Shown in pieces: positions 24,374 to 28,423 of a stretch of DNA of 64,000 nucleotides. The DNA is from Acidobacteriota bacterium. GTDB taxonomy: Bacteria > Acidobacteriota > Blastocatellia > Pyrinomonadales > Pyrinomonadaceae. The stretch covers positions 248,001 through 312,000 of the forward strand of contig RFGC01000018.1 in the NCBI GenBank assembly GCA_003697135.1. Direction: 5' to 3'. The translations under genes and the position numbers were made by a program. Position 1 is the stretch's first letter. Every line of letters starts with the position of its first letter. A model generated the notes under the pieces. It worked only from the letters and a program-made list of their open reading frames with translations. It was not told the origin of the DNA and searched no databases.

Positions 24374-25735
24374 ATGAGAGCATACAACAGTGTTTTAGAG
24401 TTAATCGGGAATACTCCTCTTGTCAGAATCAACAAAATCACGAAACAATATGGCATAAAAGCACAAATCTACGGCAAGATGGAATCTCTGAATCCCGGTT
24501 ATTCTGTTAAGGATAGAATCGGGATTGCAATGATCGAAGATGCCGAAAAGAAAGGGCTTTTGAAGCCCGGAGGCACGATCATAGAAGCAACTTCGGGAAA
24601 TACGGGCATCGGATTAGCTCTTGTTGCGGCTGTGCGCGGTTATAAATGTATTTTCGTCATGACAGACAAAGTTTCGGTTGAAAAGAGGCGATACTTGAAA
24701 GCCTTAGGAGCAGAGATAGTTATTTGCCCAGCAGCGGCCAAATACGGAGCACCAGACCATTATCTTGAAACTGCAAAGAGAATAGCTAAGCAAACTCCGA
24801 ACTCGTTTTATCCCGATCAATACAGTCATCCTGCGAATCCTTTGGCGCATTACAACACGACGGGACCGGAGATTTGGCGAGATACCGAAGGGAAAATCAC
24901 TCATTTTGTTGCAGGAATTGGAACAGGTGGGACAATTTCGGGAACAGGGCGATATTTGAAGGAAAAAAATCCGAACATTAAGGTTATAGGAGCTGATCCT
25001 TATGGTTCGATTTTCAAGACCTACAAGGAAACTGGTTTAGTGCCTGAGGCTACGCCTTATTTGGTTGAAGGTATCGGGCAAAACATGCCCGTCGAGAATG
25101 CCGATATGAAGATAATTGATGAAATAATCAATATCACCGATAGGGAATCCTTCGAGATGTCGCGCCTTCTTGCTCGTCAAGAAGGAATCTTTGCTGGAGG
25201 CTCAACAGGCACTAATCTTGCGGCGGCTTTGAAAATAGCTAAAAATCTTGATGAAAACGCTGTTGTGGTCTTCATCGTTTGCGATACGGGCGAGCATTAT
25301 TTGACGAAGCATCATTCGGACGAATGGATGAAAGAAAAATTGATGCTTGAACCGCAGAAAATCACGGCTGAATTGATTTTGGAAACCAAATCAAACGGCG
25401 CACCAAAAGAATTGGTTTTCGTTACACCGAACGAAACTGTGGGCGAAGCATTAAAGAAAATGAACAAGAACGGTATTACTCAACTTCCTGTTTTGGAAGG
25501 CGAAAAATCCGTAGGTAGTTTGCGCGAAAATCAGGTCTTGGCAAAACTTCTCGAAGACCCAAGTCTTTTGAATGCACCTGTAACTGAAATCATGGACAAA
25601 AGTTTTCCAATTGTTCATCCGGACACAAGCGCAGAAGAAATAAAATCAAAACTTAGGAAATCTCCAGCGGTTTTGGTAGAGACATTTTCAAGAATAACTG
25701 GAATAATCACAAGAGCAGATATGCTGGATTTGTGA
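24374..25735 (+). CDS. Cystathionine beta-synthase (PLP enzyme with CBS pair)
   Basis: PLP enzyme of the cysteine synthase/CBS family, 453 residues. The catalytic domain has the PLP Lys46 in SVKDRIG, the phosphate-binding SGNTG loop and [10 protein letters not shown]-like [15 protein letters not shown]. Two C-terminal CBS domains (about 335-450) make it cystathionine beta-synthase-like rather than plain CysK, so it probably condenses serine and homocysteine in transsulfuration. O-acetylserine sulfhydrylase activity remains possible. It has its own promoter and is followed after one base by the FHA gene, so their translation is coupled. Confidence 0.9.
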
Positions 25736-25736
25736 G

Positions 25737-27317
25737 ATGCCGAAAGCAAAACTCATAATTGACGGAACAGAAATCCCGCTTGAAGACGGAATAACGACTA
25801 TAGGAAGAGCGCCAGATAACAAAATCTGTTTGGCTGAAGACTCTAATGTTTCACGCTATCATGCTGAAATCGAATGTAAAGACGGAAGGTTCTGGCTTAC
25901 GGACGTAGGAAGTCGCAACGGAACGACCATAAACGGAATCTCTGTAAAAACAACCGTGGAGCTATTCGACGGTGATTTAATAGTTTTGGGCGGGACAAGC
26001 CAAATAAAATTTCATATTGAAAAGAGCGAACCGGAAACTGAAAAGCCGCAAGACACTGAGAGTAACTTTGCAAGTGAATCATCGGCAATTGAGGCGCCGA
26101 AATCGGAAATAGTTGAGCAAGCATCAGTGGAAGTCTCGAAAAAGTCATCATTTCCATTGATTTTGATGGGATTTTTCGTAGCTTTAATGATGATTTTCGT
26201 AGCGGTTTTGGCTTTCTTCCTTTACGGAAGTTTTGCTAAACCAGCTTGCGAAGTAAAAGCCAAGATCGTAAGCCCGGAAAGTGGCGATTTGATTGATAAG
26301 GAGACGGAAATCAATATCGAAGTTCAGAACGGCGAATGTTTAGAGCGCCTTATTGTTTTACTGGAAGATGAACCAGTAGCGATAATTGAACGCCAACCCT
26401 TCGTTGCTACCTTGAATCCTGCTGATTTTCCGGAATTTGCCGATGGCTTGGAGCATTCGTTGAAACTTGTTGTAGAAGATTCAAACGGTAAAAGATCAAG
26501 CGCCGATGCCATCTCAATAGCTTTGGAGACAGCAAGCATTAAGAAACCAGAGGAAAGAGACATTTCGCAGGCTGGTAGCGAGGATGGTTTCAGTAGTGAG
26601 AACAATCTTGAAGGTAGTTCTTCATCTAGCAACTCAAAGCCCAAGATTTCTCTAGTCGAGACTCAGCAAGCAATTCAGCAAATTCTAAAACAGTTTTCCG
26701 GCAACTTTTCATACAAGTTCGATGAACAATTTTTACGAGAAGTGCAGAGCAAAACAGGCGAATATGCTGAGGAAGGCTATTTTTCAAAAGCCGAAACTTA
26801 TCGTGATTTGATAAACATTGAATTTCACAAGGAAAACGGACTCGACGCTCCGCTTGGATTTCTCTTGGCGATGAGCCGAAGTAAATTCAATCCGCAAAAA
26901 CAAGGTGACAAAGAAGGCTTGTGGCAACTTTCTGATGAGTTTCTGACAGCAAACGGTTACAAAACTCTTTGTCCGAACGAGTCCTTAAGTAACAAAGAAC
27001 AATCTTGTGCCGCAAAAACAGCGGCTGTCTATACAAAGGCTTTGTTTTTGAAGGTATTTAATGGCGATCTGATTTACGCAATAGCCGCTTTTGGAATGAA
27101 TGAGCAAGAGGCTTTTTCTTGGGCGTCGAGTTTGCCTGCAAGTAGAATGGATTTTTGGAAAGTAGTAAAGAAGCCTCAGCAGAGAGAGAATTTAGTTAGG
27201 TTTTTTGCCGCGGCTATAGTTGCAGAAAATCCGCAGAAATTCAATCTCAAAAGGGATAGACCTATCTCCGAATTATACAGAAGCCTAATGATTAACCTTC
27301 CTGCTTCCAATCGTTAA
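25737..27317 (+). CDS. FHA-domain membrane protein with an Ig-like and a degenerate transglycosylase-like domain
   Basis: Protein of 526 residues with a rare architecture. Residues 1-95 are a forkhead-associated domain with the phosphothreonine-binding set (R24 in TIGR, S39 and H42 in SRYH, N61 and G62). A low-complexity acidic linker leads to one membrane helix (139-164). Outside the membrane lie an Ig-like segment (about 172-265), a Ser-rich linker, and a region (about 365-470) that resembles soluble lytic transglycosylases (FLLAMSRSKFNP, then EGLWQLSD). The position of the catalytic Glu appears to be Arg381, so it is probably a binding domain. The start is one base after the previous stop. 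No Ser/Thr kinase gene is in the window. Confidence 0.78.
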   Translation: MPKAKLIIDGTEIPLEDGITTIGRAPDNKICLAEDSNVSRYHAEIECKDGRFWLTDVGSRNGTTINGISVKTTVELFDGDLIVLGGTSQIKFHIEKSEPETEKPQDTESNFASESSAIEAPKSEIVEQASVEVSKKSSFPLILMGFFVALMMIFVAVLAFFLYGSFAKPACEVKAKIVSPESGDLIDKETEINIEVQNGECLERLIVLLEDEPVAIIERQPFVATLNPADFPEFADGLEHSLKLVVEDSNGKRSSADAISIALETASIKKPEERDISQAGSEDGFSSENNLEGSSSSSNSKPKISLVETQQAIQQILKQFSGNFSYKFDEQFLREVQSKTGEYAEEGYFSKAETYRDLINIEFHKENGLDAPLGFLLAMSRSKFNPQKQGDKEGLWQLSDEFLTANGYKTLCPNESLSNKEQSCAAKTAAVYTKALFLKVFNGDLIYAIAAFGMNEQEAFSWASSLPASRMDFWKVVKKPQQRENLVRFFAAAIVAENPQKFNLKRDRPISELYRSLMINLPASNR

Positions 27318-27458: not shown

Positions 27459-27484
27459 AATTTGAGTTGGTGAGGGCTTTTGAG

Positions 27485-28423
27485 ATGAGAGTAGCAAGGC
27501 TTTTGCTTGTTTTTGTCTTAGTTTCGTCGGTTTTTGCATGGGATGATGTAGGTCACAAGGCTACAGCCTATATTGCATGGCAATTGATGTCGCCGCAGGC
27601 ACGGGAAAAGGCTGTAAAAATTTTGCTTTCCGCTCCAGAAGATTCTCATTTAGCCGTTTTTTTCTCAAACTACAGTGCAAGACCGCTAGAAGTGCGTCAA
27701 CTGGAATTTTTCATGATGGCTTCCGTTTGGGCTGATGTTGTCAGAGACCGTAACTTTCCTGTTCGCAACAGCAAGTATCACAAGAGCGATTGGCATTATT
27801 TTGATAAATTCTGGAAGTTTGAAAACGGAAAAGTCAAGTTACTCGAAAATCCCGAAGGTGAAAGCGGTGGCAAGGCGGTTGAAAAACTTTTTGAATTAGA
27901 GAAAATCTTGCGCGATCCGAGCGTGCAAGATTCTGAAAAAGCAATCGCTTTAGCTTGGTTTCTGCACATTGCGGGCGATATTCATCAGCCACTGCACAAT
28001 TCGGCAAAAGTAACTGAAGCCTTTCCTAAAGGCGATCAAGGCGGAAACCTGTTCTTGCTTACACCAAAAGGAACACCACGAGAAAAACAAGAGAATCTAC
28101 ATTGGTTTTGGGATTCAATCATCATTCGCAATATTGAACGAGGTAGCGCTTGCGATTTGGATTTTATTCCTAAAATTACCGAAATGATAACGGCTGAGTA
28201 TCCATTATCTTCAATGCGCAACAAGCTCGAACTTGGAAAATATGATAAGTGGCACGAAGAGGCTTTTGAGATTGCAGTAACGAAAGTCTATCCACCGACG
28301 CTTAAAATGTTCGAGATGCCTTCGGAAGAATACCGCAAAGAGGCTTTCAGGATTTCAAAACAGCAAATAGCTTTAGCTGGCTATCGCATCGGAGAAACCT
28401 TGAATCAGATTTTCGGGAAATAG
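27485..28423 (+). CDS. Secreted S1/P1-type zinc nuclease
   Basis: Extracellular or periplasmic phospholipase C/P1 nuclease-fold enzyme that cleaves single-stranded nucleic acids and removes 3'-phosphates. The signal peptide (residues 1-18) ends so that the mature protein starts with Trp19. In this family that Trp supplies the N-terminal amino and carbonyl zinc ligands. Further ligands are in DDVGHKA and HIAGDIHQPLHN. The length of 312 residues is normal. ATG 27485 follows GGTGAGGG by about 9 bases, so the TTG at 27467 is rejected. It likely scavenges phosphate or nucleosides from outside DNA and RNA. Confidence 0.92.
   Translation: MRVARLLLVFVLVSSVFAWDDVGHKATAYIAWQLMSPQAREKAVKILLSAPEDSHLAVFFSNYSARPLEVRQLEFFMMASVWADVVRDRNFPVRNSKYHKSDWHYFDKFWKFENGKVKLLENPEGESGGKAVEKLFELEKILRDPSVQDSEKAIALAWFLHIAGDIHQPLHNSAKVTEAFPKGDQGGNLFLLTPKGTPREKQENLHWFWDSIIIRNIERGSACDLDFIPKITEMITAEYPLSSMRNKLELGKYDKWHEEAFEIAVTKVYPPTLKMFEMPSEEYRKEAFRISKQQIALAGYRIGETLNQIFGK

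Follow-up and report, generated by a model that had tools for sequence, protein, structure and literature searches.

A transmembrane FHA protein with a transglycosylase-type domain lacking the catalytic Glu, and its association with a type VI secretion system in Pyrinomonadaceae

The open reading frame at positions 25737–27317 of the window (the window is the whole 64,000-nucleotide stretch analysed, from an Acidobacteriota bacterium of the family Pyrinomonadaceae) encodes a protein in which an FHA domain is joined through a transmembrane (TM) helix to an Ig-like domain and to a domain that, by homology, belongs to the SLT (GH23) transglycosylase family. The SLT-type domain has Arg381 where the catalytic Glu should be. 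In related genomes the gene opens a row of three FHA-TM-SLT genes (the trio) that stands before genes of a type VI secretion system (T6SS), and its association with the T6SS is strong. The reading that we lean towards is that the trio is a T6SS accessory set acting at the cell wall, with the window protein as its non-cutting subunit.

Domain layout and loss of the catalytic Glu

The features of the locus are as follows.

25737–27317, + strand: FHA-TM-Ig-pseudoSLT protein, 526 aa (open reading frame; present in 54 of 119 family genomes)
25794–25991, + strand: FHA domain, residues 20–85, predicted phosphothreonine-binding residues intact (Pfam PF00498, E = 1.9e-19; key residues invariant)
26151–26225, + strand: single transmembrane helix, residues 139–163 (hydrophobic stretch C-terminal to Lys-Lys; helical in the model)
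26253–26531, + strand: Ig-like (Big_7/FN3-like) domain, residues 173–265 (Big_7 in orthologs; model; PDB 3pe9 match)
26643–27314, + strand: MltD-type SLT (GH23) pseudo-domain, residues 303–526 (hhalign with the sister FHA-SLT family and with MltD of the same genome; PF01464 in orthologs)
26877–26879, + strand: codon of Arg381, at the catalytic Glu position (profile alignments; ortholog rows)
24374–25735, + strand: cystathionine beta-synthase-like gene (PALP and two CBS domains), 5′ neighbour of the FHA-pseudoSLT gene (domain matches; locus survey)

Positions 25737–27317 are open on the + strand only. The FHA match scores 70.3 bits against a curated cut-off of 20.7, and none of the residues G23, R24, S39, R40, H42, N61 and G62 varies among the 52 ortholog rows covering them. 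An earlier note, made from the letters of the sequence, had described an FHA domain with intact key residues, a layout of FHA, membrane helix, Ig-like and transglycosylase-like domains, and Arg381 in place of the catalytic Glu; all three descriptions hold. Two Lys residues precede the TM helix, therefore the FHA side is predicted to be cytoplasmic.

Pfam finds Big_7 in 20 of 21 orthologs (best E = 7.9e-9). AlphaFold2 (AF2) models the Ig-like domain at pLDDT 80–88, and in a Foldseek search the model resembles FN3-like modules from glycosidases (TM-score 0.79 to PDB 3pe9, normalised by target length). Cys171 and Cys201 are invariant in a 21-member ortholog alignment, and Cys412/424 are kept in 54 of 55 ortholog rows; two disulfides on the outer side of the protein are plausible. 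An S1/P1 nuclease gene adjoins the FHA-pseudoSLT gene downstream (window positions 27467–28423).

The C-terminal domain is assigned to the SLT (GH23) family from profile comparisons. The pseudo-SLT profile aligns with the sister FHA-SLT family described below (hhalign, E = 8e-19) and with the LysM-MltD protein of the same genome (E = 1.6e-7). NCBIfam MltD (PRK10783) matches residues 375–502 with E = 0.024. Pfam searches detect PF01464 SLT in 4 of 21 orthologs (best E = 1.7e-5) and in 21 of 21 members of the sister family; the window protein by itself falls below the PF01464 threshold. The fold predictions speak mainly for the other domains. AF2 runs of the full protein and of the C-terminal domain alone, each with two input sequences, give an all-alpha SLT region at pLDDT of about 40, and the FHA, TM and Ig parts of the full protein are well modelled. 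Significant Foldseek matches of the full model, whose SLT region is of low confidence, are to FHA and FN3/Ig modules only. A profile search of the PDB with the pseudo-SLT family matches FHA and Ig-type modules and no transglycosylase; the same search with the sister family matches MltD-like 8rhe (E = 2e-11).

In both profile alignments Arg381 of 'AMSRSKF' falls on the Glu of 'AMIESEH' (sister FHA-SLT) or 'GQVESMW' (own LysM-MltD). No ortholog row departs from Arg at position 381 (55 rows, 54 distinct sequences; the invariance covers orthologs of the window clade, and distant members vary at this site). F384, D444, G453 and P499 are likewise kept in 55/55. Gly453 occupies the position of the Asn of the AYN motif, and the Gln of the GLWQ motif is Arg or Lys in 35 of the 55 rows. 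Window-type orthologs thus lack two residues by which a GH23/SLT enzyme is recognised, the catalytic Glu and the AYN-motif Asn.

Distant subfamily members carry Glu (G437), Val (G106), Gln (G502, G510) or Arg (G127, G179, G085, G001) at position 381. Because of this variety, the simplest reading is that the ancestor had Glu, that Glu was lost, and that Arg became fixed in the window clade. In a tree of SLT domains a single branch with support 100/99 separates the pseudo members from the Glu-bearing ones. A Glu near the site, overlooked in the alignment, had been named in the earlier note as evidence that would count against the loss. Glu occurs at the exact position in one distant member, and one position before the conserved Arg ('LERSKF') in the orthologs of G082 (L037) and G057 (L038), this being the only Glu directly beside site 381 in the window clade; the window protein has none.

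Lytic transglycosylases described in the literature work with either Glu or Asp (PMC5841429), and with Asp444 invariant in 55/55 rows it could be argued that the window protein is still an enzyme working through another acid. This is very unlikely. Asp444 is found at a helix start, nine residues ahead of the AYN-motif position, and is off the catalytic position in the alignment; the replacements at the AYN Asn and GLWQ Gln positions speak against it as well.

The three-gene set and its linkage to the type VI secretion system

Two more FHA-TM proteins of the same kind are encoded in the window's genome, both on contig C44.

L039 10547–11983 (own genome, C44): sister FHA-TM-SLT protein, with Glu, Gln and Asn all present
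L039 14218–15555 (own genome, C44): third FHA-TM member, SLT motifs gone

Glu321, Gln339 and Asn400 of the sister protein are invariant columns in the alignment of its family. In most Pyrinomonadaceae members a conserved EHCxC motif directly follows the catalytic Glu of the sister. Ordinary secreted transglycosylases are also present in the genome (L039 3859–4704; L040 4807–6585). The second of these is the LysM lytic transglycosylase MltD, the closest full-enzyme relative of the window protein's C-terminal domain; MltD keeps its Glu and has LysM repeats, whereas the window protein has Arg381.

The survey of gene neighbours suggested in the earlier note shows the three-gene set and its T6SS context in relatives. 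In related Pyrinomonadaceae three consecutive genes encode the pseudo-SLT protein, the Glu-keeping SLT protein and a more degenerate member. The order in most of the related genomes read is FHA-pseudoSLT, FHA-SLT, FHA-degenerate, (a YkgJ-like gene), TssK, TssL, TssM, with TssK confirmed by PF05936; at trio loci of related Pyrinomonadaceae the remaining T6SS genes follow TssK-TssL-TssM. A trio or duo stands directly before TssK in G437, G106, G127 and G085, and of these G437 and G127 belong to other families. ImpE and TssABC come after TssK in G127 instead of TssL-TssM. Within the survey, which covered Acidobacteriota, orthologs of the window gene are seen in one class only, the window's own.

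Among 119 family genomes, the counts for the window-gene ortholog and TssK of the same class (both, ortholog only, TssK only, neither) are 53/1/3/62, with a Fisher p of 6e-29 that ignores shared ancestry. For that reason dispersal with retention is the better argument. The window's genus has the trio broken up: in G019 it is spread over contigs C21, C20 and C11, the T6SS being on C16, and in the window's genome it is split between C40 and C44, the T6SS being on C33; in both, everything has been kept. The ortholog without TssK is in G075, a fragmented genome in which TssB is present. G016 and G025 have same-class TssK without the ortholog. G502 and G510 have the trio and no tss gene on the stretch read, and there is likewise no tss gene near the FHA-pseudoSLT gene within the window.

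The T6SS on C33 comprises TssKLM, ImpE, TssABC, Hcp, TssEFG and ClpV by homology and reading of the sequence; TssK, TssB, TssL, TssM and ImpE are confirmed by Pfam. VgrG of this genome is on C24. TssJ is a divergent family. PF12790, a profile that detects E. coli TssJ, recognises a TssJ in 0 of 119 family genomes. Pfam finds no peptidoglycan-binding domain in the genome's own TssL and TssM. PADLOC gave no match.

The trio is not common to every T6SS in the family. A second, divergent TssK class without the window gene occurs in seven genomes (E about 1e-39 to 1e-46). In this class a putative lipoprotein gene, a candidate TssJ, is found just upstream of TssK (L087 7906–8415, G027).

Several other genes were observed around these loci. 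Just upstream of the sister gene on C44 (L039 5925–9816) are an FHA-adenylate cyclase, an MreB-like protein and a site-2-protease-like protein with CBS domains, as read from the sequence. In other families, secreted trypsin-like and DUF4384 proteins are encoded immediately upstream of the trio (L106 12056–15056, Pfam; L104 12909–15780). Many T6SS-bearing genomes have a second protein of PF05591 (the T6SS sheath family), about 500–530 aa long, away from the main T6SS operon, and in G001 it is located near the trio (L090 13675–15273, G001 contig C18).

The fha genes of classical T6SS clusters sit 5′ of tssKLM, and the trio occupies the matching position. The window protein could then be a TagH/Fha-like T6SS regulator of which only the cytoplasmic FHA matters, the outside domains being eroding remnants of a former FHA-transglycosylase; absence of the catalytic residues from the pseudo-SLT member and of the motifs from the third would fit this. 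The outside domain is, however, well conserved at the residues listed above, including the Cys412/424 pair, and an invariant Arg would not be expected in a domain undergoing decay, which makes this reading unlikely.

The cystathionine beta-synthase neighbour

The coupling of the window gene to cystathionine beta-synthase (CBS) remarked on in the earlier note is real in the window, where one base separates the CBS end (25735) from the ATG at 25737, and a four-base overlap is found at the corresponding junction in L001. Such tight stop-start coupling is seen in the window's genus only. CBS is the conserved 5′ neighbour at 20 Pyrinomonadaceae loci; outside that genus the two genes are mostly separated by a small gene or by some tens to hundreds of bases. 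The locus lacks CBS in G001, G437, G127, G502 and G510. CBS is thus a positional neighbour only. Apparently it was a boundary gene, and it stayed beside the leading gene of the operon once the cluster had come apart.

The idea of a functional link to CBS was rejected, since CBS is missing at the locus in other families and the window gene co-occurs with the T6SS instead. For the same reasons it is extremely improbable that the window protein serves sulfur metabolism and that gene order links it to the T6SS by mere coincidence, although CBS adjoins it in most Pyrinomonadaceae and is stop-start coupled to it in the window.

Proposed role and comparison with known T6SS components

On balance we favour the view that the trio is a T6SS accessory set coupling threonine phosphorylation to wall opening and anchoring, the window protein being a wall-binding or regulatory subunit that does not cut. 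The cytoplasmic FHA would dock on a protein phosphorylated on threonine, which would be a kinase or an inner-membrane component of the T6SS. On the periplasmic side, the Ig and dead SLT domains would attach to glycan strands, or else would bind the sister FHA-SLT and hold it in position; this sister has retained its Glu and would do the cutting. The set may in this way open and grip the peptidoglycan at the site of TssKLM assembly, and only when the phospho-signal is on.

The earlier note had suggested that a kinase signal is carried to the wall. This fits, and the kinase search it proposed finds at least 10 Ser/Thr kinase genes in the genome, none of them tied to the window protein; what the note had missed is that the protein has two FHA-TM-SLT paralogs and that all three are tied to the T6SS. 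Four genes upstream of the trio, G502 encodes a kinase fused to an FGE-sulfatase domain (L104 15777–17909, − strand).

Signalling could also run the other way, with the window protein as a sensor of wall damage that binds muropeptides outside and reports inward via the FHA, e.g. triggering T6SS retaliation. A pseudoenzyme ectodomain on a single-TM receptor would suit such a role, as would the abundance of kinases. An FHA domain, however, reads phosphorylation and does not make it, so that the natural flow is from inside to outside, and retention with a sister of the active type favours action on the wall. The sensor is accordingly rated an improbable alternative to the accessory set.

A more far-reaching version of the accessory-set proposal is offered tentatively, as a possibility we rate below an even chance. 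Here the T6SS would breach its own wall under direct phosphothreonine control, through three TM FHA-transglycosylase paralogs at the membrane complex (one cutter and two non-cutting members) that take over the anchoring done by TssJ/TagL and have the Fha regulator and MltE-type cutter fused in single polypeptides. How the wide T6SS membrane complex passes through small-pored peptidoglycan is an open question, and according to a 2023 review wall-cutting enzymes are not commonly part of T6SS clusters (PMC10433429). In the present case a whole lineage retains, alongside its T6SS, one transglycosylase and a pair of dead relatives, and all three are fused to FHA across the membrane. A link between phospho-regulation and wall opening thereby becomes testable, and the window protein is an example of a dead transglycosylase retained with a fixed Arg. 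Nothing relevant was found in the open-access literature on FHA fused to a transglycosylase, or on FHA and an SLT domain in a T6SS.

Among known components, TagH/Fha1 (TIGR03354) shares with the window protein the FHA domain, a gene in the T6SS operon (of relatives, for the window protein) and the likely reading of threonine phosphorylation; Fha of A. tumefaciens binds the phosphothreonine of TssL and activates T6SS secretion (PMC3953482). TIGR03354 scores 44.2 bits with the window protein against a cut-off of 120.25 and covers the FHA part only, not the full length; the TM helix and the periplasmic Ig and SLT domains set the window protein apart.

EAEC TssM recruits and stimulates MltE (PMC10433429), likewise a protein of the lytic transglycosylase family at the wall with a T6SS (PMC5841429), whose counterpart here is the sister FHA-SLT. 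Peptidoglycan is cut by MltE during T6SS assembly. MltE is an active housekeeping lipoprotein encoded elsewhere, whereas the domain described here is FHA-tethered and T6SS-encoded, and in the window member lacks Glu. TagX, also a wall-acting protein from a T6SS cluster, cuts peptidoglycan for T6SS assembly in Acinetobacter (PMC5061870), where, as here, no TssJ is recognisable (PMC10564176). Unlike the window protein, TagX is an L,D-endopeptidase of another family and has no FHA.

Anchoring of the T6SS to the wall, as proposed here, has also been proposed for TagL, TagP, evolved TssL and TagV (PMC10433429). These have known peptidoglycan-binding domains (SH3b in TagV) and neither a dead transglycosylase nor an FHA domain. 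By analogy with these systems, the trio looks like Fha regulation and MltE/TagX-type wall cutting joined together.
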